NCBI GenBank assembly: GCA_964036195.1
Contig: OZ038451.1
Coordinates: forward strand, 24,631,927 to 24,695,926
Source of the DNA: Sphaerolaimus hirsutus
Lineage: Eukaryota > Nematoda > Chromadorea > Monhysterida > Sphaerolaimidae
DNA length: 64,000 nt
Direction of reading: 5' to 3'
The notes below the pieces were generated by a model that saw only the letters and a list, made by a program, of their open reading frames with translations, did not search any database and had not been told where the DNA came from. Below, one piece after another: positions 12,401-58,475 of this stretch. Within the stretch, counting starts at the first letter, position 1. Each line of letters starts with the position of its first letter. The translations under genes and the position numbers were made by a program.

Positions 12401-15400
12401 CCATTGATGCGACGTATGGGGGTGTTGTGAGTATATACCGTATTTCCTCGAAATACCCCCCCCCCCTTGAAATACCCCCCCCCTCGTTTGACCCCCCCCC
12501 CCCTCTCGAGACCACTATGAAACAATCACCCCCCCCCCTCGAAATACCCCCCCCCCCAAGTTGAGTGTAAAGAGAACGTACATGACAAATACTGCAGTTT
12601 GTGTTCTGCGTAGTGCAGAACACACGTTAAAACAATGTCGGAATCATGTTAGAACAGTGTTTATACCATCTACGTACTAATATTAGTCTACAGAACTAGT
12701 GATGGAAAAGCGCCAGAAAAAAGGGCGCCAGGCGCCAATGGCGCCATGGCGCCATTCAGAAAGTGGGCGCCAAGCGCCAAGGGCGCCACAGAAAAAGGGC
12801 GCCAGGCGCCAAGGGCGCCATGGCGCCATTCGGAAAGCGGGCGCCAGGCGCCAAGGGCGCCACGGAAAGAGGGCGCCAAGCGCCAAGGGCGCCATGGCGC
12901 CATTTGAAAAATAGAGCGCCAGGCGCCAAGGGCGCCAGGATAAATAAGTGCATACAACACCCTGCGTGTGCTGAAAGTGTTTCTACAGCACCCTAGTACA
13001 TGCATTCACTACTTAATTTGCGTTCTCCAGGGTGTAATGAACAAAGACAACACTAGCAACAAAAAAATTTGAGTAAAATTCACATGACAATTCAATTCAA
13101 ACACAATGGATATTGTCATTTGACAACAATCCATTCACTTCAAATTGACTTTTCCAATCAATGTTTCCTCGAAATGGACAAAAAACGGAATTGCAATGAT
13201 TTGAATCCGTTTATTTATGATTTTGCAAGTTCAACGTTCCATCATTATCGTCTTCTGATCTGTCAGACACATCTGGGGCCAGTTCCGCAAGTAGACAAGT
13301 TAAGAGTTAAAAGTTAAGAGTTGAGTTAAAGGTTAAAAGTTGAGTCAAAAGTTGAGTTAAAAGTTAAGAGTTGAGTTAAAGGTTAAAAGTTGAGTCAAAA
13401 GTTGAGTTAAAAGTTAAGAGTTGAGTTAAAGGTTAAAAGTTGAGTCAAAAGTTGAGTTAAATGTTAAGAGTTGAGTTAAAGGTTAAAAGTTGAGTCAAAA
13501 GTTGAGTTAAATGTTAAGAGTTGAGTTAAAGGTTAAAAGTTGAGTCAAAAGTTGAGTTAAATGTTAAGAGTTGAGTTAAAGGTTAAAAGGTGAGTGAAAA
13601 GTTGATTTAAAAGACAAATGGGTCATTTGTTGCAGAAGCGCGATACGCTGATCTTCAATCATATTTTGTCCCCACACGGCCATTTTGAAACAATGTTCCG
13701 CGATTTTTTTTTTAGCGTTAATTTTTTTGGATATGTTATTTCCATATGTCGTGCATACAACATTGGCATCATGCCAGCAAACAGCCGTATCAATACCAAT
13801 TTCACATTTTTATTTTTTACCATCATTTTCCACTTGTCTCTTAACTCTCAACTCTTAACTCAACTCTTAACTCTTAACTCAACTTTTAACCTTTAACTCA
13901 ACTCTTAACATTTAACTCAACTTTTAACTCAACTCTTAAATTTTAACTTTTCTCTTAAACTTTAACTTTACTCTTAACTCGCCATTTGTCATTTTACTCA
14001 ACTCTTAACTTTTAACTCTTAACTTGTCCACTTGCGGAACCGGCACCTGATGAACCGTTGCACAAAAGATTTATACCCACTCACACCACTTCGTCCATTT
14101 TTCTGGTGAATTCAGATCATCCATGAATGCGTTTTTCATCTTTTTTACCATTTATACAGCACTCACCTTGAAACCCTGCTGGCGCCTTTTTGGCGCCCTT
14201 TAAAAACAGGGCGCCAGGCGCCAAGGGCGCCACGGAAAAAGGGCGCCAAGCGCCAAGGGCGCCATGGCGCCTTTCAGAATGTGGGCGCCAGGCGCCAAGG
14301 GCGCCACAGAAAAAGGGCGCCAAGCGCCAATGGCGCCATGGCGCGGCGCCCTTTGGCGCCCTCAAATGGCGCCAGCGCCATGGCGCCATTCCATCACTAT
14401 ACAGAACCTTATAAATGGCGATTTTTGTTGCATTTTTCGACGTCTGCGTACGTTTCAGATGACAATTTCGTACTTGGTTTTCAAAAAATTTCTTGTGAAA
14501 TAATAACCCCCCCCCCCTCGAAATACCCCCCCCCTCGAAATACCCCCCCCCCCTCGTTTAACCCCCCCCCCTCTCGGGACCACTATGAAACAATCACCCC
14601 TCGGGGGGTATTTCGAGGAAATACGGTACTCTCCTCCATTTTCAGCTTTCTGCTCCCCCCGCAGCGGGAGTTAGGGCACCCGATGTGAAATCAAAAATAG
14701 GTTGCCGGGTCTGGCCGGGAAGGTGTTTAAGAACTTCTTCCTGGTACATTTGTATGAATTTTAATGCAAATTTTTGAAAAGCCACTGCTGTCAAGTACAT
14801 TATGCAGAGGCAGAAAATTGGATCTTTAAAAGCATTAGTTATTGGACAGACATAAATTGTGGGGAATGAAAATTGAAACTTAAAATGCAATTTTCTCAAA
14901 ATGCATTTTGTGGACTTACCAACTTTTACAAGTAGACTCCTCAATTGTGTAAAATCCTTGATGTAAAAACAATTTACAGATGTACACCGATGGCAAAGGT
15001 CACTTCTTTTGTGCCTGCCTCATGGCAGATTCATTGAGTAACCCATTTGCAAACTGCAGGACAGTGCTATCCAGTGTGAGTCTGTTTCAAGCCTAAAATC
15101 AATCAGTGTTCAATCATAAGTTCAATTATGTCTTTTGGATTTCAGATGGAAAGGAAGAACACCATTTTGTACAGTGTCAATTACATCACATTTGTTCTGA
15201 CATTCTTTCTGTGCAAAATTGTTTTGATTCCATTCATGATTCAAATCTATGCATACAATTTAAATGTATCATTCTTTGAAGGATTTTGGCAATTAAATGC
15301 CCGCTGTAAAATTGGCACGATTGTACTTTATGCGTTGTATTGCTATTGGTTTTATAACATGTTTCGAGGAGTTTTTGCTCACTTTAGGAAATTACGTAGT

Positions 15401-15430
15401 TGCATGACACAAAAGGGGAAACTGTCATGA
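9413..15430 (+). CDS. TLCD4: TLC-domain membrane protein, TLCD4 (TMEM56)-like
   Basis: Multi-pass TLC-family protein; the human TLCD4 function is poorly defined and lipid-related. Five in-phase GT-AG exons are 9413-9543, 10937-11023, 11306-11510, 14980-15075 and 15146-15430, giving 267 aa (human TLCD4 is 263). Exon 1 encodes a TM segment and the basic tail RLEKVKKARISNE. Exon 2, IVSSFHAVICGVCGLYV, matches the TLC start (RVVSTCHSLVVG in human). Exon 3 has the conserved HH in DKLYIFHHVGIL. Exon 4 has ACLMADSLSNPFANCR, aligned to the family LLAELSSPFVNQR. Exon 5 has two TM segments and a basic C-terminus ending GKLS. Donors GTGAGT (exons 1 and 4) and GTAAGT (exon 2) are strong; exon 3 uses ATG|GTTCGC. 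Intron 3 (3.5 kb) contains a three-level nest of mobile elements. The poly(A) signal is at 15451. Confidence 0.87.
9751..10720. mobile_element. Element with (ACACATCTA)n termini in TLC-gene intron 1
   Basis: ACACATCT/ACTCATCTA arrays at 9751-9835 are inverted at 10622-10715. The core at 10150-10450 is built of GAAGTGTCTTCA and CTTCCCGACGCTGTGAAGCG palindromic repeats. Confidence 0.5.
11619..11876. mobile_element. Short hairpin MITE in TLC-gene intron 3
   Basis: TATAGGCGATCCCCTGTGAA ... ATTTCACGGGGGATTGCCTATA, with inner inverted arms CCAAGTAAATGGCTCAAACT. Confidence 0.7.
13273..14046. mobile_element. GGTGCCAGTTCC-type foldback (K subfamily) with a minisatellite inside
   Basis: The termini GGGGCCAGTTCCGCAAGT and ACTTGCGGAACCGGCACC are inverted. 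On the - strand it reads CAG|GTGCC...CCCCAG|, the same layout as the introner-like family. The left arm carries the 50-bp tandem repeat and the right arm an inverted, diverged version of it. It is nested inside the element 12697-14399. Confidence 0.7.
13361..13610 (+). repeat. Minisatellite, 50-bp unit, about 5 copies
   Basis: The GTTAAGAGTTGAGTTAAAGG unit recurs every 50 bases, built from sub-motifs GAGTTAAAAGTT. It appears to be an expanded arm of the enclosing foldback. Confidence 0.85.
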
Positions 15431-15450
15431 AGCTGTTCACTTTTAATTCA

Positions 15451-15456
15451 AATAAA
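15451..15456 (+). terminator. Poly(A) signal AATAAA of the TLCD4-like gene
   Basis: AATAAA begins 21 bases after the TGA at 15428-15430. A second candidate, AATAAAATG, lies about 25 bases further on. Confidence 0.6.
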
Positions 15457-15691
15457 ACGTATTCAAGGATTGTCAATAAAATGTATTCAAGAAAGGATTT
15501 ACTTAAATTTTACAGAATGCACACATAAAACATATTAAATGCATGTGACCTCTTTCCTACCCTCAAAGTTGGGGGAGTTATTCGAAGGGGGTTATTTTTT
15601 CCTCACTCGGTTTATAGTGGGAGTTATTTGAGTGGGGGCTTGTTCATGGTAAGCAGTGAAATGAGAAGTGAAATTAACAGTGAATTGAGAG

Positions 15692-16597
15692 TAGTGATGG
15701 AGAAGCGTCAGAAAAGAGGGCGCCAGGCGCCAATGGCGCCATTCGGAAAGCAGGCGCCAAGCGCCAAGGGCGCCACAGAAAAAGGGCGCCAGGCGCCCAG
15801 GGCGCCATGGCGCCATTCGAAAAGTGGGCGCCAGGCGCCAAGGGCGCCACGGAAAGAGGGCGCCAAGGGCGCCAGGAAAAATAAGTGTGTCCGAACCCTG
15901 CGTGTGCCCAAAATGTTTCTCCGGCGTTGTAGTGTTTTTACTCCAATAACTTTGTTCATGTTCTCCAGGTGCCGGTTCCGCAAGTGGACAAGTTAAGAGT
16001 TAAAACATAAGAGTTGAGTAAAATGACAAATGGCAAGTTAAGAGTAAAGTTAAATGATAAATGATGAGTTAAAAGACAAGAGTAAAGTTAAATGACAAAT
16101 GATTAGTTAAGAGATAAGAGTAAAGTTAAGAGTCAAGCAAGTGTATCCAAATCTTATTTTTCGTATCCAAATCTTATTTTTTGTATCCAAATCTTATGTC
16201 GAAAAATAAGATTTGGATGCAAAAACATGAGATCTGCATACGAAAAAATAAAATTTTAATACACTTGCTTGACTCTTAACTTTACTTTTATCTCTTAACT
16301 AATCATTTGTCATTTAACTTAACTCTTAAATTTACTCTTGTCTGTTAACTCATCATTTATCATTTAACTTTACTCTTAACTTGTCATTTGTCATTTTACT
16401 CAACTCTTAACTTTTAACTCTTAACTTTTCCACTTGCGGAACTGGCCCCAGGACCTCCAACAAAAACCAGACAAGCAACAAAAATGTTTTGCAGAAATCA
16501 TAGTCACATGTGATGTTCAATTCAAACACAATGAATTGTGAATTGTCATTATTTTTATTTTTTTGGCCGCCCTAGCCATGGCGCCATTCCATCACTA
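15692..16597. mobile_element. hAT-like element, TAGTGATGGA type, second copy
   Basis: It has the same termini as 12697-14399 and a perfect duplication ATTGAGAG at 15684-15691 and 16598-16605. It too carries a K-subfamily foldback (15969-16451) and GGCGCC arrays. Confidence 0.88.
15969..16451 (+). mobile_element. K-subfamily foldback with GT...AG ends
   Basis: CCAG|GTGCCGGTTCCGCAAGT ... ACTTGCGGAACTGGCCCCAG|GACC spans 483 bp. The arms contain AAGTTAAGAGT repeats. It is nested in the element 15692-16597. The AG|G edges are duplicated as in the introner-like copies. Confidence 0.7.
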
Positions 16598-27362: not shown

Positions 27363-30300
27363 TCACTTGGACTTGTGCGAAGCTTTCTTTTTCTTGCGAG
27401 TGCTAGTCGACGCGTTCAGGTCATTGACACTGAAAAACAAAAATGAGGGATGTACACTGGTGGAAAATTTAAATGAGAAATTCAATGAGAATTTTAATTT
27501 TTAAAAAAACGCCAACACTAACAAATTCATCGCTTGTGTTGGCAGTGCACCAAGCTGCTTACTTTCTCATTTTGCTATTATGTACAGGAATTGGAAATTT
27601 CATTTATATTTACCAGCTAAAATTTAAAATATCAAAAACCATTCAGAAAGGGGGTGCCACTTTTGGACAATATAAAGAACTGTTGGCCCCACATTCAAAC
27701 CAAATTTCAGCTGAATTGGGCCTTACGTTAAGATTATTATTATTAGTTGAAAGAATGGTGAACCTAATTTCTCATTTAAATGTACCGCCAGTTTGAGTAT
27801 TTTGTTTTGTTTACGATTCTGACATCATTCACTGCATCTAAATTACCTATTAGGCAAGCTCAAATCCGGTGTGACGTCATGATGTTTCTTCCTTCGATAA
27901 ACAGGCGCGTGTGACATCGACTTGCGTTTTTTCTTGTATGACGTGGTGGTGTTGTATTTTCGAACGACGCCCTCTTCGAGGATCCTGGTCACTTGGTAGC
28001 GCTCCTGGAAATGGATAGTGTGTGTGCATTGGCGATGGAATGGCGCTGGCGCCCTTTTCTCTGGCGCCTTTTTATCACTAGTGTACTGAAATAGTTGAAG
28101 TGAAATGAGAAGGGAAATTACTTTTTATTTATATATATTTTTACTTCGCTTTTGCCAATTTGCTTGCCATTTCACTTCGCATTTGCCATTTTACTTCTCA
28201 ATTTACGGAACTGGCACATGGACTGTCAAACGTTTCAAATTCATTATTACTCTACCCAAAACAACTGATCTTCCCCGAATCACCCCGTCACTCACCCTCC
28301 TCATAGCCAGTCTGACGTGCATGGGCACGTCGGGCACGGCCGCCCTGATCAGGTACATGCCGATGACGGCGAAGTGCTCGAACACGAGCGTGAGCGCCAG
28401 TCGCCTGCTGGCGGTGCACGGCTGCGGCGCGAAGTACTGGTCGCAGAAGCCCGACGTGTAGGACACTATGAACGCGTTGCTCACCACACCGCAGTAGGTC
28501 ACGAATTGTAGGATTGGCAGCCACATGCCTGTGGAGGACGATGTGTTGGCGTGAAAGCGAATACCGTATTTGCTTGAGTAATCCTCCCCTTGAATAATTC
28601 CCCCTCTTGAATAATTCCCACTATTAATTGACATCGACACCAAATGTCAACTGGTTCCGATCCAAATTCAAAGATTGCTGACGGGCCAACGAACGGTGTT
28701 CAAATGCAAACTTTGAATTGGGATCGGGACCAGTTGACATTTGGTGTGATGGCAACTAGTGTGTGTGGGGCCATTCTCACCAATATCCGCAGCGATGAAA
28801 GCGACCGGCCGGCGGTTCCACCAGAGCAGCCGCCTCGCGTCGATGCGCATGTCGATCAGATTGAGCACCAGCGCGAGCAGCGGCGCCAGCGGGAACGACG
28901 CGGCGAACAGGCAAATGTAGCCGAACTGGACCACCTTCTCGCCGTACTCTTCCAGGGGGCACTCCCGGAGCTTGTAAAATGTCATGTGAAATGTCAAATG
29001 TCATGCAAAGTGTCAAAGGTCATGTAAAATAACCTGAAAAATGTTTAAATGTCAAGCAAGGTGTCAAACGTCATGTAAAATTGCAAACAGAGTTTTACAT
29101 CTTCCACCGAAATTTACATCACGTTTGACATGATATTTTACATTTTTTGCATGACATTTTACGCGGCACTTGACATTTTACATGACATTTTACAGGTTCC
29201 GGGAGTGTCACCAGCGTGAAGTCGCCTGTGTCCGGCTTGGTGTACTCGCGCAACAGCGTGCTGTGCTCGGCGCTCACGCTCGCCGCCGAGTCGAGCGCGT
29301 CTAAAAAGTCGGTGTCAATGGCCGCCGCTCTATCCGAATGCCCACTGCCAGTCGGCTGGTGTTTCGGGTGTGTCCTGGGTGCAGTCCCAGACCCTGTAAA
29401 GTGTAAAGTAAAGTGTAAAATGCCATGTAAAATGTCAATTTTAAGAAAAAAAGATAAGATTTTATCTCTGAACTTTTCATGACAATTGACACATTACTTG
29501 ACATTTGACACTTTACTTAACACTTTACAGGATCTGGGATTGGCACCAGGGCGCGATGGTGTTCTTGAAGCGTTTCACCGTCACCGGCTCCCTGTATTTG
29601 GCGCAGCACCGGCGCTTCAACGCGCGGTAGACCGTCTTTAGAAAGGGCCACACGATGTCCAGGTAGAATTTGGGCACGGGCTTGAGCAGCATGAGCACGA
29701 GCACCTGGAAGGACAGGAGCGACATGCAGTCGCCCCGGTTGCACGTGTCCTTGTATTGTTCGCCCCAGCCGAAAACGCCGTATTTTTGGAAGCCCTGCGT
29801 GTTTTGTGTGTATTTGCTGGGTGAAATTGTTAGGGGCAGTCCCCCTCATGTAAAGTGTCAAATGTCATGTATAATGTCTTTTAAAACACGTAAAAACGAT
29901 TTTATTGCCGAGCTTTTGACATTTTGCATGAATTTTGACAAATTGGCATGACATTTGACACTTGACTTTACACTTTACAGGGTGCGGGACTACCACTAGG
30001 TGGATCTATGCTGTCCGCATTGTTACCCTCATAAATATACCTACCGCATTTGATCGAAATACCCCCAGGGGGTTTATTTTTTATAGGGGGTATTTTCCAG
30101 AGTGCACATTTTAGGGGGCTTTTTCTAGGAATTACGGTACACCCAAAAATCATATTGTGTTAAACCAACGTTTTCCTCCGCTCTAAAGAAGGCTATATAA
30201 AACAGCGATGTGTAGGTGTTGACGAACTGAAATGCGAACAGCTTTATGATGAGCGAATCATTGAACTCTGACTGCGTTCGATGATTTTCTGCATTTTGTT

Positions 30301-33300
30301 GGTTCTCATTGCAGATTCGATAAATAAATACAGGGTGCGGCAATTTAGACGGACACTTTTGATTTTGAATAACTTGACACTGGGTGGTCTGATGAAACTT
30401 TAATCGTCACGGAAACGTTTAATTGTCACTTTATTGACCATCACCTCGTGATATAGTTCAAACGGGATCGACTTTTTGTGACCGCAATCGGGATCGGGAT
30501 TGTTTTTTCATTTTTCGGGACCGGAATTGGGGTCTCGGGACCGGAATCGCGATCGGGATAAGGCGCTTGCGTAATTTGTCGTAAATCAAGGTGGTCGTAA
30601 AGCGACGATAATTGGTGTTTGCTTGGATGACACGTGAACGAGTGGAGCTATCGCAGCCATATTTTGTGGAAACCTTTCCTATTTAGTTGTTAATGTTCAC
30701 CTAAATTTTGTATTTCATCCGACCACCCAGTATCAAGTTATTCAAAATCTAAAGTGTCCGTCTAAATTGCTGCACCCTGTACATTTGAACAATATGAAAA
30801 GATGCAGGTTTCGTCCCTTCTCATGGACCTGCCCCCATATTTGTGCGGACTGTTTTGTCGTCATTTTCCAAACACTGATGCACCATCAAACCAACCCCAA
30901 AATGTGAGCCTCTTAGCCGCGTACTGATAAAGTTTTCCCAGCAGCATTATGCTGGCGGCATTAGCAATTGATGGTATCGCGCTGCTAACTATCAGACAAG
31001 TTAAACGGCCGCCTCGCTGTGCCGCCGGCAAAGTATCGATGCAGTTGTAGGTGACTCGGGCCACGATCTGCGCAGTTTCCCTTTGCGGTGCACCGTGTAA
31101 GTTAGAATGACCACTTGAAGAACGATTACCAGGGGGCAGTCCCAGACTCTGTAAAATGCAAAATGTCATGCAAAGTGTCAAAAGTCATGTAAAATGCCCG
31201 GTAAAATGGCAAACACGTTTGCCCTTTTACATGACTTTTGTCACTTTGCAGGACATTTGACATTTGACATTTTACAGGGCATTTTACAGGGTCTGGGACG
31301 GGCACCATCACTCACTTTGTTCACGATGACGCCGACAACGCTGATAAATACGATTACGATCGCCGTGCTGACGAATGCCGCTGACAGCACGAACTTTTGC
31401 AGTCGCCGCCATTGCGGGTAGATCCAGGACATTTCGCCCGTTATCGGGTCGGGTCGGCACTCGGTACCGAAGAATTCTGTCGGGAAAATGAAGTGATAGG
31501 TGAATACAGCAGTAATATTTAGTTTCGGTATAATAAAAGCGTGAAACATAATAAATATGCTGCAAGCGACGGGATTGTCGTGAGCGGACCGGACCCTGAA
31601 ATGTCCCGAAAAGTGATGTGAAAAGCGCCGGAATCCCATCCTACGGATCCGTACGTTCCGACTCCGAATCGCGTGACCAACTTAAGTTTGAAGCCATGAA
31701 CGTAAATAGAATATACCGTATTTCCTCAAAATACCTCCTTGAAATACCCCCTCGAAATACCCCCCCCCCTCCGAAATACAGTGTTTATACCATCTAGGTA
31801 CCTACATACTTATATACCCGAGTACTTATATAGGTAATGTACTTAAGTGCATCTCAATTTCTGATGATAAATATTTACCCGGCCTGTCAGGTTCCGTGTG
31901 TTCATAACTTTCACAGTCCCACATGTACGCCAATGTGTTATTATTGCGCTTCCATATTTCCAAGAACAAAGTGCCCCATAGGCAGATAATCATAGCAAAC
32001 GGTGCGCTGAATTGGTTGTCGAACGCCAAGCGAATTGCCTCGAGAACATCTGCCATTGAGCTTATTCTGAGATGTTACAGATCATAAGGTTGCCGCCAAT
32101 AATATCGATTTTACAGTGGAATCACATTGGGCCCAGACACGCTAGTTGACATCTACGCCAAATGTCAACTGGTGCCGATCCCGATTCAAAGCTTGTTGAC
32201 GAGTGGACGAACGATGTTCAAACGCAATCTTTGAATTGGGAACGGAACCAGTTGACATTTGGTGTCGATGTCAATTAGCGTGTGGGGTCATTGAACCGCA
32301 CCTGAAATCCGCACCACATCGGACCAGTATTGCCGAATTTACATCACCAGGCGCGGTTGTCGTGAATCCCGTGATGTTTGTCACGTTTTTAGACACACAG
32401 TCAGAGGGAATGATATCTCTTATGCTGCGATAATAAATTGATTCATAAATTCCCTCGTCTGGTTAAAATAAACTTTATTCAATGACCTGGGGGCAGTCCC
32501 AAGCCCTGTAAAGTGTAAAGTAAAGTGTCAAATGTAAAGTCAAATGCAAAGTAAAGTGTCAATTAAAACAAAAAAGAAAAGATTTTATTACTGAACTTTG
32601 CATGACAATTGACAGTTTACTTTGCACTTGACTTTACATTTGACACTTTGCTTTACACTTTACAGGGCTTGGGACTGCCACCTGAGGGTACTCCCAGACC
32701 CTGTAAAATGTCCTGTAAAGTGTAAAATGTCATGTAGTGTCAAAAGTAATGTAAAATGCCCTGTAAAATGGCAAACTAGTTTGCCATTTTACAGAGCATT
32801 TTACATGACTTTTGACACTTTGCATGACATTTTACAGGGTCTGGAAGTGGCACATGCTCGCAAACGAAGCCACTCCTCACCTCAGAAACAATCCGTAAAG
32901 AAATACAGCCAACCCTGCGATCGCAGGCACCCAAAGCACGGTGATAAAAGTGCCCTGCCAGGCGAAATACAGTGCTATTTTCTCGCCGAAATAATTTCTG
33001 ATACGCCATAATGGCTGGAATTTGGTGCACAAAGTCCACGTTCTGTTCAATTCTGCTCGTGCATCTTCACCGTCGATTGAACTGGATACCTTAACAGTTT
33101 ATTTGGATACATCTGACGTTTGCCAATTGGCGGTGAAATAACGTGTGCATATATTTATTGTATGGACTGTACGCTTTACATTGAAAGCTACCATATCCCA
33201 TCCAAAAAAGAACATTTTAAAATATTATTTCTACAAAAACATTGCATGCACCATTGAAAAATCAACACACAACACAAAACAAGACTTGATTCATCAAAAT

Positions 33301-34922
33301 ATGGTAACATCCAGTGCAAAGCGTGCCGTAAGGCATGTAGCTAGGTATACTTAAAATTAAACGTACCCTTTTGTCATACAGCTGCGGGTCCCTCTTGCGC
33401 AGCATCTTGTAGTAAGGGTCGTCGATGGAATTGTCGTGCAACACAAACTGGTCAATGTACGCTTTGCGCATCAGCAGATACAACAAGCCTGCTCGATTTT
33501 CGTGGATTCGTGTTTTTGATTTGTCAAATTTAAATTACATAAATTCCGATGATAATGTTTAATTTGACTGGCCTCTTTTTCTCAACGTCGCGTCATTTCC
33601 GTTCGTGGATGCTTCTGGTGAGAAATCGCAGAAGCCCTTCAAAGCTTCATTGATATCCAAGTTGATAAGTATATTGTACACTAGAAGGTTTCGTTGACTA
33701 GTGCGCAAAAAGGTTCTCTCATTTCCGGCGCCAACGAAAAGGTGACGTTTTTCCAATTCGAAAGGTGCGCTGACGTAGTCCACTTCGTCGTCGGTGAGGA
33801 AATACTTGCCAAAAATTCGTGACAACGTTGATCTTGTGTCTTCGATGGCGCACTGAAATATATAGTGAGCGTCTTACTTTAATCCATATTTAGCAATGCT
33901 ATGGCATAAACTCATTATCATTGAGTATTGAGTGTCTGCACGACTCAGTGTCTTACTCAATTTATAAAATATGCTAAACGAAATTTTCAAATTTCGCGCA
34001 GGTGCACATTCATAAATTTTTATATTTTGAAATTTTGAGTACCGTTAATTAAAGTTCTGGTGCCAGTTCCGCAAAATGAGAAGTGAAATGGCAAGTGAAT
34101 TGGCAAGTGAAATGGCAAAAGCGAAGAGAAATTACCTTTTATTATTATTTTTTTACTTCGCTTTTGCCAACTCACTTGCCGTTTCACTTCGCTTTTGCCA
34201 TTTCACTTCTCACTTCTCATTTTGCGGAACTGGCAACCGATGTGCAGATCCAGTGTCGAACTTTGCAGTGCATCACTTTAGCTCACTCCTTTCAGTGGTA
34301 GCTCCAGTCGCGTCCTTTCAGCCTCCAGGGCGATCCTCTCAAATGAGCAATAAAACTTCACGAACACCAAACGGCCCACTTGTTCCTTTTCAATGAAAAT
34401 ACCATCTGACACAGCCGCCTGTTCGAAACTGTGCCTGCGACAGTAAAAAAATGTTTTACCGAAAAATTAATGTTGATGCGAGCGTTTTAAATATCAATTG
34501 CACCTGGCTGCGGCGAGGGGCAGGTCTCTGGGGGCAGTCCCAGACCCTGTAAAAACCCTGTAAAGTGTAAAAGACCCTGTAACCACGAACCTTTGGACAT
34601 AAGATTGGGATCCAAAAACATAAGATTAGGATACAATACAGAAATATTTGTAGAAATACGGTATACACATACACGACACTTTACAGGGTATTTTACAAAA
34701 CACATGACATTCTACATGGTCTTTTACAGGACACCTGACATTTCACAGGGTCTGTTCATGACACAACACTTTACAGGATCTTTTACATGACACCTGACAT
34801 TTTACAGGGTATTTTACACTTTACAGGGTTTTTTACAAGGTCTGGGACTGACACCTGGTATCGTATACGAGCACATAATCGACGAATGGCAACGATGTTT
34901 CGTCGGCGGCTGGTCGGGCCAT
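27363..34922 (-). CDS. Anoctamin (TMEM16) calcium-activated channel/scramblase, about 17 exons
   Basis: Exons from the ATG (34922; in-frame TGA upstream): 34855-34922, 34504-34527, 34287-34434, about 33571-33852, 33367-33488, 32881-33014, 32302-32424, 31879-32066, 31306-31476, 30876-31129, 30170-30304, 29547-29794, 29212-29374, 28781-28952, 28296-28528, 27847-28004 and 27363-27429. The product is about 896 aa. Diagnostic segments in order: FVDYVLVYDT (dimerisation domain), IRNYFGEKIALYFAW, LFLEIWKR, RTQSEFNDSLIIKLF..FQFVN..FYIAFF, EEYGEKVVQFGY, FPLAPLLALVLNLIDMRID and ADIGMW. The TM7 (EYxE) and TM8 (D..xxD) calcium ligands are present. The TM6 site reads KFYLDI where NNLFEI is typical. The tail is Lys/Arg-rich. 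The junction between exons 4 and 5 is unresolved: no GT donor in the right phase was found. Several introns are single foldback elements. The subtype is not assigned. Confidence 0.93.
27455..27792. mobile_element. Short mariner-like element in the last anoctamin intron
   Basis: CACTGGTGGAAAATTTAAAT ... ATTTAAATGTACCGCCAGTT. TA precedes the left end; the right flank is changed. It fills most of the intron 27430-27846. Confidence 0.6.
28617..28775. mobile_element. CACTAGTTGACA-type element in an anoctamin intron
   Basis: AATTGACATCGACACCAAAT ... ATTTGGTGTGATGGCAACTAGT is a hairpin directly after the donor of the 28781 exon. A half CCGTATTTGC element abuts it at 28560-28616. Confidence 0.6.
28953..29211 (-). 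mobile_element. Introner-like element in the anoctamin with a CTG instead of CAG 3' end
   Basis: A 259-bp foldback. The 5' end is CTG|GTGACACTCCCGGAACC. The 3' end is CTCCGGGAGTGCCCCCTG|GAAGAGTAC. Exact removal restores FTLEEYGEKVVQFGY, which has the TM7 calcium-ligand pair (ExxE). The nearest AG acceptor in frame (GAAGAG|TAC) would delete two Glu, including the first ligand. Confidence 0.8.
29375..29546 (-). mobile_element. Introner-like element that is exactly an anoctamin intron (29375-29546)
   Basis: A 172-bp foldback: CCCTG|GTGCCAATCCCAGATCC ... GGTCTGGGACTGCACCCAG|GACACACC. The splice completes the Trp codon of NTIAPW and keeps the frame into the next 163-nt exon. Confidence 0.88.
29833..29998 (-). 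mobile_element. Introner-like element inside a larger anoctamin intron
   Basis: The termini GTAGTCCCGCACCCTGTAAA and TTACATGAGGGGGACTGCCCC are diverged copies of the family ends. Splicing at its own ends does not keep the frame. The in-phase solution is donor 30169 and acceptor 29795, which makes it an internal passenger. Confidence 0.65.
31130..31305 (-). mobile_element. Introner-like element in the anoctamin (31.2 kb), also ending CTG
   Basis: A 176-bp foldback: GTGATG|GTGCCCGTCCCAGACCC ... AGTCTGGGACTGCCCCCTG|GTAATCG. Excision at exactly these points keeps the frame (VSDG..NRSSSGHS) into the next TM exon. No in-phase AG acceptor was found in the following 20 bases. Confidence 0.75.
32137..32290. 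mobile_element. CACTAGTTGACA-type element in an anoctamin intron
   Basis: ACACGCTAGTTGACATCTAC ... GTCGATGTCAATTAGCGTGT has near-perfect inverted arms around TCGTCCACTCGTC-like sequence. It fills most of the intron 32067-32301. Confidence 0.65.
32487..32681 (-). mobile_element. Introner-like element, second of a head-to-tail pair
   Basis: On the - strand it runs GTGGCAGTCCCAAGCCC ... GGGCTTGGGACTGCCCCCAG|GTCATTG (195 bp). It begins at the base after the CAG of the neighbouring copy, inside one anoctamin intron (32425-32880). Confidence 0.8.
32682..32853 (-). mobile_element. Introner-like element, first of a head-to-tail pair
   Basis: On the - strand it runs GTGCCACTTCCAGACCC ... GGGTCTGGGAGTACCCTCAG (172 bp), abutting the next copy with no spacer. 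The functional donor of this intron is upstream (CTGAG|GTGAGG at 32880), so this copy is a passenger or an extension of an older intron. Confidence 0.78.
34059..34238. mobile_element. K-subfamily foldback in an anoctamin intron
   Basis: GGTGCCAGTTCCGCAAAATG ... CATTTTGCGGAACTGGCAACC with arms of AAGTGAAATGGCAAG repeats. It lies in the intron 33853-34286 but is shorter than the intron. A related half copy is at about 28098-28216. Confidence 0.65.
34528..34854 (-). mobile_element. Introner-like element that is exactly anoctamin intron 1
   Basis: A 327-bp foldback between FVDYVLVYDT (exon 1) and the 24-nt exon 2. It starts GTGTCAGTCCCAGACC and ends GGTCTGGGACTGCCCCCAG. Internal short repeats of TTTACAGGGT/ACCCTGTAAA form a long imperfect hairpin. 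The phase (2) is kept across the splice. Confidence 0.88.
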
Positions 34923-43006: not shown

Positions 43007-46000
43007 TCAAACTGCAGTAGAATTAGTCGCCTCAGTCGGAGCCGGCAAATCGTCAGGACCTCGATCCCTAGTCGCCGCTTCCTTGGCAGCCTTAAAAAGG
43101 TCATCTTCCGACAACATTTCCCCTTTCAGTTGGCTGCCGTCGGCGGCGACAAAACGCCCGTTGATGCCGAAAGGTCGCAGGTGATAAATCAGGTATTCCA
43201 TCACGTACATTTGGTTGGGCGACACGTAATGGAAGGCGATCGAGTGGTCGCTGCAGCACCCCATGCCCTGGGGGGTTGATAAGGGGGTTGGTGGGGGTAG
43301 GGTGGTAGTTTGAGAGGATCTTAATTTTGGAAAAGTCTGATTTAAAAGATCAGATTTTTTTATATTACACGATGCTTTTTTTCGATTTCAAACAAGAATG
43401 TCAAACTTGCAGTACTGTAGGTATGGAAAAACGCGCTTTTTCCAACGACTACGCTTTTTTAAATATAAACGGCGCTTTTTTGCACATTTTTACCTTATAC
43501 CAACTTTGAGCCATTTTAACCCATTTTGAGCTATCAAATCATTACATATATAGCTTTTTGAAGAATGTTCGTGACTTAAAAAGCGGCGTTTTAAATAAAG
43601 CGGTTGAAAAAACGCTGGCCATCCCTATAGTACTGATTCATAAGGTATTTAAAAGCGTTCGTGCCATTTAAACATAAAAATCAAACAGCCAGAAAAAATC
43701 AATTTATCCTATCTCTATTTCACGGCTGTACACGAATTGCACCACAATTTAAAAACAATCCCACCTGCTCAATAGGATAATAAATATACTTCCAGAACCA
43801 AAAGTTCGGATCGACATGTCCCGGAATCAGGTGGTGCTCTGGCACGAAGGGCAGAAATCTATATCTGCCCTCAAAATCCCTGCTGTCGCCCGCTTTAACG
43901 CCCACGCGATACATGCACTTGCCCATCTCCGCGTCCTCCGCACCCGTGTGGTCCTGGGGGGCAGTCCCGGACCCTGTAAAATGCCCTGTAAAATGTAAAA
44001 TGTCATGCAAAGTATCTACATTTGCCATTTTCGAGGGCATTTTTCATGACTTTGACAGTTTACATTTTACATTGCGTGACATTTTACATATTACAGGGCA
44101 CTTTACAGGGTCTGGGATTGGCACCTGCTTGCACTTTGACTTGTCTGGAAGCGCCTCCTCTACGAAGCGGCGTAGAGCCTCGCGCGACAGCACGTAGCCA
44201 GCCCCGCCCGACATGTACCTGGGGGATGGAAAGTTAAGTAAAGTGAGGTAAGGTAAGTTGAGTAAGTTAAGTTGATACTTGCATGTAGGGTCCAAACAAG
44301 ATCCCGATCCCGAATCCCGAGACATTTAGGGATTTTGTGGTCCCGATCCCGATCCCGAAACTTTTGAAATCGCAATCCCGATCCCGAATTTTTTTACTCA
44401 ATCCCGATCCCGGAAAATTTGCCGACTTAAAAAAAACATTTTTGCAGTAAGAATTGTGACCATTCCTTAAATATGATAACTTTTTTCCAATCCCGATCCC
44501 GATCCCGAAAAAATGCTAATCCCGGTCCCGATCCCGAGACACCAATATCGATCGCAATCCCCAAATCTCAAAAGACCAATCCCGATCCCGAAAGCTCAAT
44601 CCCGATCCCGATCCCGAAAGCTCAAAAAGCCAATCCCGACTCCGATCCCAAAAAGTCAGTCCCGTTTGAACCCTACTTGCATGTGCATGACGATTGTGCT
44701 GATAATAAATACACTGTAGGGTTAATATCCTAAGTTTGACGAATGAAATCAAAAACAAAATACTTTTAGACTATATTTTGAACTTTTCTTTTCTGGCACT
44801 ACCCAAACAATCCCCCAAAAATCCTACAATAAACCACACATATATGCAACTCACCCCTGCGGATTAAACGGTTTGAACTTGCAACCAAACCAAATAGGCT
44901 CTTCAGGACTGTGTGCCATCAGCATATATCTCAAATTCTCCACAATGACATAAGTGTCGTCATCAGCTTTCATAAACCAGTCATAATCATTTAAATAATT
45001 GTCGTAGACGTATTTGTAAGCAGCTTTTGTCTTGCCCCAAAGCCAATTTCTACCCTCTTGCACATCGAGTTTTACTGCTGGTAACTCAGCGTCAGCTTCG
45101 GATGAGATGAAAATGTACTTGTTGCACCTGTGCGTGATGGACGTTGGATTAAAGTAGAGTGACAACTTAAAATGGTGTACTATTGGCGTTTTTTACACAT
45201 GTGTCAACTCTGATTTCGGCTTGACGTGTCGCAGAGTGATCTTCCAATGCACTTGCGACAATTTTGAAGAAAAAATATTACGCATTGGCATATCGCCCTG
45301 CGACACGTGAAGCCTAAATCTGAGTTGACATTGACAAGTTGACACCCACGTGTCAACTAGTCTGCGGGACACCATTATTCGAGTTATGGCCCAATTTTTA
45401 AAGATTTCCGACCTTCTGGCCCAGGTGGCTTTGACGTGCTTTGCGCGCTTCTCGTGGTTGTCCTTGCCGGTGAGCACCCAGCACAGGACGCGCACGCGCT
45501 TCGCCACCGCCGCCGCCACTATGTCCTCGCCTGCGCGTGAATGTTTTTACATGTTTGAAGCGTTGTTTGTAACGTCGGCCGCTTGAGTAATGGCCACACT
45601 CGAATGCGATGAACTAAGTTATGTTTTGAGGCACAGACGCTTTTATGTGGCGCATCATTGCCACTCGATCAGATGACAATGCTAAATCTCGTCAAGTGAT
45701 ATACTCGGCGGAGATCACTCTTAGTGTGGAAACCTACCATAACCCATCTGAATAATGAACCAAAAATTATACAGTTTTCTCATCATAATACTTCGATTTT
45801 AATATGGAATAATTAAGTACGACATTTATCACAAGATTTTATTGATTAAATTAAGGTAGGATTCTCCACATGAATTCGTTTAAGTAACTGTTTGTCACTT
45901 TACTACTTTTAATTCGCAGTCCGACGAGTATACATACATTAAAAAGTTAGAATTGTCACTTTCCACTTGACCTATACAGCATTGGCGGCCCGCACACCAG

Positions 46001-47218
46001 TTGACACGCGTGTGTCAACTGGTCTGTGTCAACTCAGATTTCGGCTTAAGGTGTCGCAGAGCGTTCTCCAAATGCACACGCGGTAATGTCGAAAAATATG
46101 GATTACGGCAAACGCATTGGAAGACCGCTCTGCGACACGTGAATCCGAAATCAGAATTGACACAGACCAGCCGACACACAAGTGTCAACTGCCAACTAGT
46201 GTGTGGGCCGCCAGTCTCTCCTCAACCCACCCAAATGATTATGCTCATCACTGGAATGGAACTGCACTGGCCGGTCGGGCCCCGCGGCCTGCTGCAGCAC
46301 GCCATGGTCGTGCGGGTCGTTGTGTCCGCCGAAGCCGGCCGCATCGTGATCGTCGTGCACGTGCTGCGCCGCCGGCGCCACGGAGCCGGGCATGGCGGGT
46401 TTGTGTTGAGTTGCCTGTTGTCGTTGCTGCTCTTGCTGTTGTCTCGATAGTACGTGGGATCGCTGATGCGGGTGGGGGTGTGATTGAGGTTGGGGTTGGG
46501 ACACCGAACCGACACGAACGGCCGGTCCAAGCATATTTTGGAACCGATTACCGAAACCGAAAAATACCTGTACCGGTACCGAACACCGGAACCAAAAATT
46601 TTGAGGAACCGAGAACCGATATCCGAACCGAAATCTTTTGGAACAGAGAACCGGAACCGAAAATTTTGAAATTCCCAACCCTAATTGGAGGTGGGGTTGG
46701 AGTGTAGTCGATTTGAGTCGATCTATGGCTCTAGACTGGTCGATCTAGTCGATCCGGGCTGTTCTTCAATCAGCAAGGTGCAAATGAAATAAAAATTCAA
46801 TTAAAAATAATTTTTTTCAGAATTCATTGGTTGGGCCCATCACATCATCCGTGTCGAAGGCAGCGATAACACACGTCAAAATTACTATTTTCATCACAAA
46901 ACCGTGGTTGATAACTTGATAACTTGATAACGTGGTTGGTAAAACCATACAAAACCACAAGTGAATGCCACTAAAAGACGTAGTTTCTTACGAAGTTTGC
47001 AGACGTTTTCCAAACCCTCCATGCCATCCGTACAATATTTAATTGTCACAAACCCAACCAACAATGCCGACAAGAGTGCGCTCCATATCCTGCTGGTAGG
47101 TGGCCACGTAGGCGTTCAGGTACATGTAGCTGAGCGCGAAGCCGAACACGATGCCCACGGTGAAGTTGAGCAGCATCGAGCGCAGCCGGCTGGGCCCGCC
47201 CGCGCCGCTCGACCACAT
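43007..47218 (-). CDS. C1GALT1: Glycoprotein-N-acetylgalactosamine 3-beta-galactosyltransferase 1 (core 1 synthase)
   Basis: Golgi type II enzyme that adds Gal to GalNAc-Ser/Thr to form the core 1 O-glycan. Seven in-phase GT-AG exons (47072-47218, 46231-46462, 45413-45530, 44855-45127, 44125-44218, 43765-43953, 43007-43267) give 437 aa, compared with 363 in human. A short cytosolic tail and signal anchor ([17 protein letters not shown]) sit in exon 1. A Gln/His-rich stem fills exon 2, which explains the extra length. The catalytic domain begins [10 protein letters not shown], then [17 protein letters not shown]. The metal-binding motif KADDDTYV is at about residues 219-226. [40 protein letters not shown] and [10 protein letters not shown] follow. 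The gene looks complete and functional. Almost every intron contains one TIR element, and intron 5 is itself an element. Confidence 0.96.
43418..43627. mobile_element. hAT-like MITE in C1GALT1 intron 6
   Basis: TAGGTATGGAAAAACGCG ... AACGCTGGCCATCCCTA, flanked by CAGTACTG and TAGTACTG (7/8). Confidence 0.75.
43954..44124 (-). mobile_element. Introner-like element that is exactly C1GALT1 intron 5
   Basis: A 171-bp foldback. On the - strand it begins GTGCCAATCCCAGACCCTG and ends with GGGTCCGGGACTGCCCCCCAG. The two ends are inverted copies and the middle is TGTAAAATG-type repeats. The flanks are CAAGCAG| and |GACCACAC, leaving CAGG at both edges. The upstream exon ends KSKCKQ and the downstream exon begins [14 protein letters not shown], as C1GALT1 requires. 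So the spliced intron and the element share both boundaries. Confidence 0.9.
44286..44675. mobile_element. hAT-like element with (CGATCC)n arrays in C1GALT1 intron 4
   Basis: TAGGGTCCAAACAAGATCCC ... CAGTCCCGTTTGAACCCTA with a perfect 8-bp duplication, CTTGCATG. Most of the body is variants of AATCCCGATCCCGATCCCGA. Confidence 0.88.
45186..45372. mobile_element. CACTAGTTGACA-type inverted-repeat element in C1GALT1 intron 3
   Basis: GTGTCAACTCTGATTTCGGC and its inverted copy bracket a core with GACGTGTCGCAGAG. It has the same design as the copy at 45990-46215. Confidence 0.6.
45990..46215. mobile_element. CACTAGTTGACA-type element in C1GALT1 intron 2
   Basis: GGCCCGCACACCAGTTGACA ... TGCCAACTAGTGTGTGGGCC is a strong hairpin. 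Sub-terminal TGTGTCAACTCAGATTTCGG repeats are inverted between the arms. Other members are at 28617-28775, 32137-32290, 49628-49860 and a half copy at 53660-53775. Confidence 0.7.
46491..46683. mobile_element. TAGGGTTGGGAATT-type MITE in C1GALT1 intron 1
   Basis: TGGGGTTGGGACACCGAACC ... GAAATTCCCAACCCTA with GAACCGAGAACCGGAACC repeats. The duplication is unclear (ATTGAGGT against ATTGGAGG). Confidence 0.6.
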
Positions 47219-47746: not shown

Positions 47747-48156
47747 TACAGAACAGAGTCCTGGCTTAGTGCCAAATGCCATTTCGACGGTTTCTTTCCA
47801 GGCAGAAATAAGATTAGGATATTTTCAATTTTCACTGTTTTGTATTGCGATCACGATCAGCTGTGATTGTGATCATTTTATCTCCTAATGTTAGATCTAT
47901 TAACACAGAAAATGCTTCCACCAGAAAGAGAAATCTTAAGCGGTGTAGGTTTTAAAAAAACCGCTTAAGATTTCTCTTTCTGGTGGAAGCATTTTCTGTG
48001 TTAATAGATCTAACATTAGGAGATAAAATGATCACAATCACAGCTGATCGTGATCGCAATACAAAACAGTGAAAATTGAAAATATCCTAATCTTATTTCT
48101 GCCTGGAAAGAAACCGTCGAAATGGCATTTGGCACTAAGCAGGACTCTGTTCTGTA
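47747..48156. repeat. Perfect-looking palindrome abutting the assembly gap
   Basis: TACAGAACAGAGTCCTGG at the left is repeated inverted up to the first N. The axis is near 47953 (AAAAAAACCGCTT / AAGCGG). The arms run past the gap on one side. Confidence 0.8.
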
Positions 48157-48356
48157 NNNNNNNNNNNNNNNNNNNNNNNNNNNNNNNNNNNNNNNNNNNN
48201 NNNNNNNNNNNNNNNNNNNNNNNNNNNNNNNNNNNNNNNNNNNNNNNNNNNNNNNNNNNNNNNNNNNNNNNNNNNNNNNNNNNNNNNNNNNNNNNNNNNN
48301 NNNNNNNNNNNNNNNNNNNNNNNNNNNNNNNNNNNNNNNNNNNNNNNNNNNNNNNN
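48157..48356. other. Assembly gap (200 N)
   Basis: 200 unknown bases, a conventional scaffold spacer, placed directly at the end of a palindrome arm. Confidence 0.99.
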
Positions 48357-55567: not shown

Positions 55568-55901
55568 GTGTGTTTCGATCTGTTCAATCTTGTTTTGAGA
55601 TATTTTGCAGCCGTAACATCGTCTTATTATACTTGCAAAGTGCCCAACTTGTCAAAACCGATTCCATAGCATCTGTGACGGATTCAAACATTTCATTTCC
55701 CCATTCGAAGGAGCAACGATGGGCGGACGGCCGTACTGATCGAAGTGAGATTTTTATAATTTTCCTGTTTTTATGTTACTGATTTTTTTTACGATTTTTG
55801 GATTCCCGCGTCACCATATGCGACGAGTGTTGCCGCGTGGTGCCGTATAATGGCTCTTTCCTATGTCGCCATTGCATTTCTGAGTTTAGTTAAAATATTT
55901 T

Positions 55902-57378
55902 ATAAACAGGGTGCACGCCAGGTCCGCCACCCAAATTCTGAGTCGGTGCCGGACGCCATATCTCCGGTTGTAGTGGGGGGATTTATTCAAAATTTTGAGG
56001 GCATATACTCGAAAGCCACCCACTACTATACACGGGCTGGGGAAGGTCGGCGACCCACCTGAGTGTGGGTCGCCGTATAAATGTATAGTTTTTTTGAAAA
56101 AATCGCTGTCCACGCGAGGCCCGCCACCCGTTGTTTTTTTTATATAACGGGCTGCCAAACTAAAACTGTTGGGGGGAATTGATCGAAATTTTTAGGGGGT
56201 GTACACGACAGCCCCCACTACTTTTCACGGAAGGTTGAGCCCCCTGGCGACCCCCTTAAGGGTGGACTGCTGGAAAATAAAATGATATTTTTGAGAATTC
56301 GCTGTCCAGGTTTGGCACTGGACAGCAAAAATAAAAATTACATTAGAATGTCCCTTGGAGGACAATGTATACCACTGTAAAAAGTGTGTATTCAAAAAGC
56401 AAATTTTAAAACGAAGATTTGATCTGGTTTGAAAGTGTATTTGACACCCATGCACAAGTTCCAGATTAAATTTCGATTTAAGTCAAATCTTTAATACACA
56501 CTTTTAAAGCTGGTTTACGATGCCTTCTAGGAGATGATTTAAGGTAAAAATTCGCGTAAACAACATTACCCCAAAAATCAACCATAGAGGAGATTTGATG
56601 GGGGTCAACACAAAAGCTGTCCCACAAGGTGAATTTTGTTCCTGGAATGATGTCAACGATGACATCATTACAGTGACCCCATCAAATCTCCTCCATGGTT
56701 GATTTTTGGGCCAATGTTGTTTACGCGAATTTTTACCTTAAATCATTGCCTAGAAGGCATCGTAAACCAGCTTTAAAAGTGTGTATTAAGGATTTGACTG
56801 AAATCGAAATTTAATCTGGAACTTGTGTATGGGTGTCAAATACACTTTCATACCAGATCAAATTTTCATTTTAAAATTTGCTTTTTGAATACACGCTTTT
56901 TACAGTGGTATACATTGTCCTCCAAGGGACATTCTAATGTAATTTTTATTTTTGCTGTCCAGTGCTAAACCTGGACAGCGAATTCTCGAAAATATCATTT
57001 TATTTTCCAGTGGTCCACTCTCAGGGGGGTCGCCAGGGGGCTCAACCTTCCGTGGAAAGTAGTGGGGGGTGTCGTGTACACCCCCTCAAAATTTTGATCA
57101 ATTCCCCCCAACAGTTTTAGTTTGGCAGCCCGTTATATCAAAAAAACAACGGGTGGCGGACCTCGCGTGGACAGCGATTTTTTCAAAAAAACTATTCATT
57201 TATACGGCGACCCACACTCAGGTGGGTCGCCGACCTTCCCCAGCCCGTGTATAGTAGTGGGTGGCTTTCGAGTATATGCCCTCAAAATTTCGAATAAATC
57301 CCCCCACTACAACTGGAGATATGGCATCCGGCACCGACTCAGAATTTGGGTGGCGGACCTGGCGTGCACCCTGTTTAT
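55902..57378. mobile_element. 1.48-kb long hairpin sharing its axis motif with 19359-20552
   Basis: ATAAACAGGGTGCACGCCAG ... CTGGCGTGCACCCTGTTTAT. The axis near 56640 reads TTTTGTTCCTGGAATGATGTC, matching the axis of the 19.4 kb hairpin. GGTGGGTCGCC motifs occur in both. Confidence 0.82.
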
Positions 57379-57935
57379 TATATGCAATTTCTGTGTGTGA
57401 AGAACAAATGAATGGTTGCTCACTGTCTTGACCCGGCGCTAATTTAAGAGTTTCATTCCAAAAGGTGCACATGTCCGCAAATTTCGATTTTTCAAAATAG
57501 AATTTTTAAGTTTGGCGCTGGGCAGACAGCACCATGTTTTGAGTGACAATACCTGCATCATACTTTTGCGATAACTTGGACAGGTGTCTACACTTCTTTG
57601 TAAACCCAAGTTTTTTCGCCCAAGTATTAGGGAATTTTGGGATTGGGATTGTTTATTTTTAATTTTCAGGATTGGTATTGGGATCTCGGGATCGGGATTT
57701 TGGTGGAAAAATTCTGGTATTCAGGTTTTGTTCTCTAAAAATTCACAAAAACTTCTAAAACACACTTGTATGCAAAAAAGTGAAACAAATTCAAACTCCG
57801 ATTTTGTGTCTGAATTAAGACCTCCTATTCAGGAGTAAATATGTAATTATGCTGTTTTGAAATGTCAATGTTGTGTGTGGATGCCAAACCACGAGTAAAT
57901 GCCTAGTAATAATTGCTTTTTTACTTCGATGGTGT

Positions 57936-58389: not shown

Positions 58390-58475
58390 GATGGTGTGGG
58401 ACTGGCCTCTTCTAAATATGTGCACATTTATGCAAGCTAATGAGTGATATAGAAAATTTTCGAATTTCGTTTCAG

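Follow-up and report, generated by a model that had tools for sequence, protein, structure and literature searches.

Introduction

Non-autonomous DNA transposons that act as introners, and whose duplication completes a splice site, were reportedly found in Micromonas and Aureococcus by Huff et al. in 2016. Introners of these two genera are named in the available portions of PMC7789003 and PMC9860276. Introners are an established phenomenon, with copepods among the carriers named in the part of Gozashti et al. (2022; PMC9860276) drawn on here; there, their splicing is described as mostly preserving length, and a type from Chrysochromulina carries its own donor, co-opts an acceptor and has a 4-bp duplication and no TIRs. 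Hairpin introners of the dinoflagellate Amoebophrya, as presented in excerpts of PMC7789003, have inverted repeats at both ends, direct repeats of 3-5 nt at the boundaries and a predicted hairpin that joins the exons. Concerning DNA transposons, PIF/Harbinger sequences are reported from fungal introns that arose recently (PMC8476143, in part). NuwaI, of the PHIS superfamily, is described in the accessible sections of Han et al. (2015; PMC4482050) as making a 5'-CWG-3' duplication and having a TIR that usually starts with GGG, and it is reported there from animals only, one crustacean included. The word 'intron' is absent from the text of that paper (PMC4482050). In the literature searched, which was covered in part, no work joining NuwaI or the CWG duplication to introners was found, and the excerpts of PMC3257199, PMC5408686 and PMC10901741 hold nothing on elements turning into introns, the last of them citing Huff et al.; those of PMC12235515, PMC12595863 and PMC4732748 contributed nothing further.

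Here, a family of foldback elements is described from a 64-kb window (the whole stretch of DNA that was analysed). Judged from the DNA, it is probably a non-autonomous foldback DNA transposon with a CWG target, NuwaI-like and of the PIF/Harbinger-related PHIS superfamily, which acts as an introner.

The foldback family and its copies

With up to three mismatches, the window contains 11 matches to the terminus GGTGCCAGTCCCAGACC, where shuffled sequence is expected to give 0.09; ten of these matches are element ends, and the one at 58393 is not. We were able to delimit eight copies of the family in two minus-strand genes, seven in an anoctamin gene and one in C1GALT1, together with a ninth on the plus strand (E8, about 7390-7583), a decayed relative with ambiguous ends and no recognised target duplication, which is excluded from all counts of eight. 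The presence of one family in two unrelated genes, proposed in an earlier note on this DNA, is borne out, with more copies than had been claimed.

All eight copies start with GTG, and their opposite end is GGGACTGCCCC or near it. Bases 2 and 4 are the positions at which the two consensus ends fail to match as an inverted repeat, and base 2 is the T of the donor GT. Read as a TIR, the 3' end starts with GGG in six of the eight copies, with GGT in E2 and with AGG in E5b; E7 has one extra C. The foldback arms (first vs. last 70 nt) are 76-94% complementary. The elements themselves are non-coding, and no transposase was detected among the 17 ORFs of the window that were scanned with Pfam. NuwaI elements are mobilised by a DDE transposase with a Myb/SANT partner, and an autonomous element could be situated at another place of the genome. 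DNA scans of viral_contigs and genome_contigs gave no match to the 19-base core of the terminus. Two more terminus patterns (19 and 17 bases) yielded one and three matches, respectively, in viral_contigs; none of the four ran into a GTAAA motif and they were dismissed as chance.

A constraint on RNA structure would predict that both arms of a copy evolve together. Among nine copies (E8 included), the own partner was the best match for only 6 of 18 arms, and mean arm identity was 0.833 within copies vs. 0.810 between copies; no concerted evolution is claimed. The termini of E1 (29194-29211 and 28956-28973) do carry complementary departures from the consensus (CACTCCCGGA and TCCGGGAGTG), which gives its two arms the look of a matched pair, a pattern that does not extend to the copies in general.

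Concerning age, the copies (E8 included) are 60-83% identical to one another, and 79-88% identical to a majority sequence of seven copies that was itself built from them. On these figures a recent burst is not apparent, and the description 'active or recent' given previously is not upheld, with the reservation that the distances may be inflated by subfamilies. That coding sequence has stayed intact next to exonic copies diverged in this way is in itself an argument for the splicing of those copies.

Insertion in C1GALT1

The copy E7 (43957-44124, minus strand, 168 nt) is located in a coding exon of C1GALT1, between two CAG triplets. Without the element and one CAG, the gene encodes a protein that aligns gap-free over 218 residues to C1GalT1 7q4i (E-value = 2.6e-108), which we take to be the Drosophila protein and which was the only C1GalT1 among four solved chains matched. 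Identity to fly C1GalT1 amounts to 149 of the 218 residues (68%), the alignment runs across the join, and neither a stop nor a frameshift occurs over its length. The genes of the window have the character of animal genes, and the closeness to arthropods that this one comparison hints at is suggestive only. Third codon positions beside the element are G or C in 11/15 and 13/15 cases, which is coding-like on both sides. The predicted protein argues strongly for E7 as a clean and decisive case of insertion into a coding exon. Its predicted intron (43954-44124) consists of the element and the 3' CAG (43954-43956, minus strand), a presumed target duplication that would supply the AG of the acceptor. 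A peptide pattern for relatives of C1GALT1 matched 22 stretches in genome_contigs, none of which was confirmed, and nothing in viral_contigs.

Splice sites were scored with base weights. For E7, the outer pair reached 7.3, the fifth of 39 in-frame combinations, and each of the four above it (14.9, 13.5, 8.5, and 7.9) would leave some element sequence in the mRNA. The donor CCT/GTAAAG (the slash marks the splice boundary here and below) combined with the outer acceptor scored 6.2 and would add six residues.

Insertions in the anoctamin gene

Four of the eight copies (E7, E1, E2, and E6) appear to lie in coding exons and the other four in ordinary introns. E1 (28956-29211, minus strand, 256 nt) interrupts an anoctamin exon, is flanked by CTG on both sides and has no terminal AG. 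Third positions around it are G or C in 14/15 and 13/15 cases, and its downstream junction abuts the conserved anoctamin stretch EEYGEKVVQFG. An internal acceptor, ACAAG, displaced by one base from the ACAG of the family, is in frame and would add 6 aa with the outer donor or 12 aa with the inner donor. In both E7 and E1, as far as the predicted proteins tell, there is no host sequence between the element and conserved coding sequence.

E2 (29378-29546, minus strand, 169 nt) is also placed in an anoctamin exon, with a predicted intron at 29375-29546 in phase 2. Its exact removal keeps the frame, and the outer donor with the outer acceptor scored 4.5, second of 34 in-frame combinations, the best being the inner donor with the outer acceptor (5.5). 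By third positions, the upstream side is coding-like (14/15) and the downstream side less clearly so (8/15). The triplet is CTG upstream vs. CAG downstream, which would agree, in this one case, with an acceptor created by a single base change.

E6 (34531-34854, minus strand) is a longer copy of 324 nt, set between CAG triplets in the apparent first coding exon of the anoctamin. Third positions are G or C in 4/7 and 6/7 cases; a 24-nt coding-like remnant is followed by the donor-like CAG/GTGCAA. The donor of the element could alternatively pair with an acceptor whose end, at 34435, is 93 nt past the CAG of the element. The enumeration for E6 was limited to one intron, and a reading with two introns falls outside its scoring.

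The remaining copies, E3, E4, E5a, and E5b, are probably not intron gains, judging by their surroundings. E3 (29834-29996, minus strand), E5a (32490-32681, minus strand) and E5b (32685-32853, minus strand) follow in-frame stops in ordinary anoctamin introns; before E5b, the coding sequence ends in FLR with an in-frame stop at the donor-like GTGAGG. E5b and E5a are the first and second members of a tandem pair. E5b is flanked by CAT and CAG; E5a has CAG on both sides and arms that are 94% complementary over 70 nt. The single CAG shared by the pair (32487-32853, minus strand) gives the junction CAG/GTGGC, which resembles a zero-length exon or a recursive splice site inside the host intron.

For E4 (31133-31305, minus strand, 173 nt, flanked by ATG and CTG), the evidence is mixed, and the copy most likely sits inside a short older anoctamin intron (31315-31068). 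Alignment to anoctamin-6 (8bc0) gave 52.4 bits when the sites of E4 were ignored and 44.3 bits with the element-internal acceptor, while the corresponding values against anoctamin-10 hardly differ (49.8 vs. 48.5 bits). The site weights strongly favour the internal acceptor (18.7 vs. 6.5) and speak against the older intron. The DNA just after E4 is non-coding in composition (third positions 3/15). An exonic placement, in which exact removal keeps the frame, was set aside for the short older intron on the anoctamin-6 bits and this composition.

At three copies, E7, E6, and E2, GT...AG stands at the element edges. The earlier note had read three spliced introns as beginning and ending at the inverted termini (43954-44124, 34528-34854, and 29375-29546). 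The element plus its 3' CAG reproduces these coordinates exactly and the ends are as described at all three; splicing itself is deduced from frame and homology, strongly for C1GALT1 and more weakly for both anoctamin cases. The statement that the elements carry both splice sites has to be narrowed to the donor, present as GTG in all eight copies, since the AG of the acceptor comes from the flanking CAG, an apparent target duplication. The coding frame, which was said to be unbroken, is kept on exact removal in C1GALT1 and at E2. E1 is exonic and lacks the terminal AG.

Flanking triplets and other foldbacks

The two flanking triplets are identical in five of the eight copies, reading CAG or CTG in four of these and CTA in the fifth, E3, which fits this count only when its 3' end is slid by one C. 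Permuted partners gave 2.50 identical pairs on average (P = 0.043, which is marginal). The flanks would fit a 3-bp CWG target duplication, and the flanking CAG looks like a target-site duplication. A scan that made no use of the family's sequence found eight foldbacks between identical CWG triplets in the window, whereas three base shuffles gave 0, 0, and 0. E1, E5a, and E6 are among the eight, and one more represents a related second family of the same design. When any triplet was allowed, the window yielded 39 foldbacks, seven with CAG/CTG flanks and 11 with TAA/TTA flanks; the latter being commoner, CWG is not the sole class present.

The second family is located at 15966-16451 on the plus strand (CAG, GTGCCGGTTCCGC ... 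GCGGAACTGGCCC, CAG), downstream of the ORF of a TLC-domain protein (15080-15427, plus strand; Pfam, just above cut-off). As no clear coding sequence was found around this foldback, it was left out of the predicted introns. Anoctamin introns also contain sequences whose ends resemble these, near 34066-34240 and 28100-28217. Another foldback type (ATTTCGGCTT...) was observed at 45210-45322 and 46035-46154, in and near C1GALT1, between CTG and CTG and between CAG and CAG triplets.

Other repeats of the window include dense short spaced repeats with inverted copies at 13254-16453, with spacings of 19 and 12 nt and partly inside the related foldback, and a very large inverted repeat at 55897-57383, whose arms of 707 nt are 96% complementary and separated by a 73-nt spacer. 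A 181-nt inverted repeat with 100% complementarity (47764-48356) immediately precedes a 200-N assembly gap and is possibly an assembly artefact. Pfam also identified a class 3 lipase domain (2395-2871, minus strand), which is diacylglycerol-lipase-like by eye.

Hairpin and internal splice-like sites

Folding z-scores (60 shuffles each) of the eight copies lay between -7.3 and -21.3, and that of E8 was -4.3. An internal GTAAA is found in all eight copies and TTTACAG in six. In predicted ensembles with 60-nt flanks, the unpaired probability of the inner donor was 0.00-0.08 in seven copies and 0.34 in E3, the donor tested in E6 being located one repeat deeper in the element than that of the TIR, and the unpaired probability of the inner acceptor was 0.00-0.15 in the seven copies containing one. 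For the outer dinucleotides the range was 0.00-0.86, with the outer GT buried in E2 (0.00) and mostly so in E4 (0.18). According to these predictions, the hairpin may steer the spliceosome to the element ends by burying the internal sites, a reading against which the buried outer GT of E2 and E4 counts. The outer donor GTGCCA is weak. With standard termini, the inner acceptor combined with the outer donor leaves 19 nt in the message and shifts the frame.

Proposed mechanism and alternative explanations

On the sense strand, E7 and E6 read exon-CAG/GTG(element)CCCC-CAG/exon, and E2 reads exon-CTG, GTG...CACC, CAG-exon. The predicted introns of the unrelated genes (E7 in one; E2 and E6 in the other) share sequence up to both splice boundaries. 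The donor would be the GT of the element and the acceptor the AG of the duplicated CAG; the spliceosome would then take out the element together with one triplet, giving back the original frame without a scar. The long hairpin would hide GTAAAG and TTTACAG and, on the folding predictions, keep the outer sites of most copies more accessible. Since CWG reads CAG on one strand only, the strand of insertion would decide whether an intron forms. Where the triplet reads CTG, no terminal AG arises, and the exonic copy E1 would have to rely on its internal in-frame acceptor or on another route of removal. Against this reading stand the weak outer donor, the rank of the outer pair in E7, the buried outer GT of E2 and E4, the marginal triplet match, the commoner TAA/TTA flanks, the departures from GGG in E2 and E5b, and the lack of a transposase among the scanned ORFs; moreover, only three of the four exonic copies end in AG, and all eight copies come from two genes of one window. 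Overall, with splicing predicted throughout, E7 stands as a very clean case of insertion into a conserved exon, E2 and E6 as probable cases, and E1 as an instructive misfit.

Could the internal sites (CCT/GTAAAG and ACAG/GG) be used instead, which would exonise at least some of each terminus and add codons? By base weights they score equally or better in E7, E2, and E4, and the internal acceptor of E1 is in frame because of its one-base shift. The frame shift caused by the inner acceptor with the outer donor in standard termini, the predicted pairing of the inner donors in seven of eight copies, and the residues that would be added to a C1GALT1 stretch otherwise gap-free to the fly make this rather unlikely. 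It is also unlikely that the foldbacks simply fell into pre-existing introns, the coincidence of ends and splice sites being secondary and no intron gained. Such an origin apparently holds for half of the copies (E3, E5a, and E5b after stops; E4 most likely), and E2, placed in a variable linker, would allow a short older intron through the in-frame combination 29584-29356. E7 and E1, however, adjoin conserved coding sequence directly, as seen in the gap-free homologue alignment for the former and the neighbouring conserved anoctamin stretch for the latter, and removal of element and triplet closes the frame exactly.

Inverted-repeat transposons can also be removed from animal mRNA by 'SOS splicing', a hairpin-guided process that does without canonical sites. 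Excision of this kind, independent of splice sites, in place of canonical introns would agree with the strong predicted hairpins of all eight copies, with the weak outer donors, and with E1, placed in a conserved exon and lacking a terminal AG; we consider it improbable in view of the exact GT...AG ends of three of the four exonic copies and of the difference between the two triplets of E2, which is the one that creates the acceptor. Finally, the interrupted genes could be non-functional copies or alternative haplotypes from which nothing is spliced, as a single assembled sequence with a 200-N gap (48157-48356) might suggest. This appears very improbable, as the 218 residues of C1GALT1 hold 149 identities to the fly with no stop or frameshift, and diverged exonic copies, if old and unspliced, should have let the coding sequence decay.

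Returning to spliced introners as the preferred reading, a bolder proposal, which we put forward tentatively and with considerable doubt, is that the choice of a CWG target pre-adapts transposons to scarless introns. The triplet would serve as an acceptor on one strand, the T of the TIR would complete the donor, and the hairpin would mask the internal sites; strand alone would decide between an intron and a mutation, and a second route of removal, either in frame or guided by the hairpin, would make exonic copies inserted the wrong way, such as E1, tolerable. If this is true, E1 next to GT...AG copies would constitute a natural experiment inside one gene, in which canonical splicing and hairpin-based transposon excision could be compared. 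Intron gain in animals is poorly documented, and the target preference of a transposon could make intron formation predictable from strand and triplet.

Comparison with known systems

The introners of Micromonas and Aureococcus differ from the present family in duplication length and in hosts. No counterpart to the proposed dependence of intron formation on the strand of the CWG was found in the literature searched, which was covered in part; the family itself most likely belongs to a kind of introner that is already known. In Amoebophrya, the splice sites are mostly non-canonical in the portion of PMC7789003 drawn on, while the present family has canonical GT-AG ends and belongs to an unrelated organism. 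The fungal PIF/Harbinger case involves a DNA transposon of the class to which the present family probably belongs, but one lying inside gained introns, and the excerpted text (PMC8476143) does not state whether its ends are the splice sites or whether a CWG duplication occurs. Compared with NuwaI as characterised in the accessible sections of PMC4482050, our family may share the CWG duplication, and its 3' end, read as a TIR, starts with GGG in six of eight copies; in contrast, one of its TIRs starts with GTG, and it is represented here by non-autonomous copies only, with no transposase for placement. Concerning the introners of Gozashti et al. (PMC9860276), as far as the consulted part of that paper describes them, the family stands apart by its apparent 3-bp CWG duplication, its TIRs within long foldbacks, its diverged copies, and splicing that is predicted from DNA. 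A match to one of the animal families of that work is possible, the comparison having been made with its main text. What the two have in common is the occurrence of similar introns in unrelated genes, likeness up to both boundaries, TIRs, and short target duplications, with the introns predicted and the duplications presumed in the present family.
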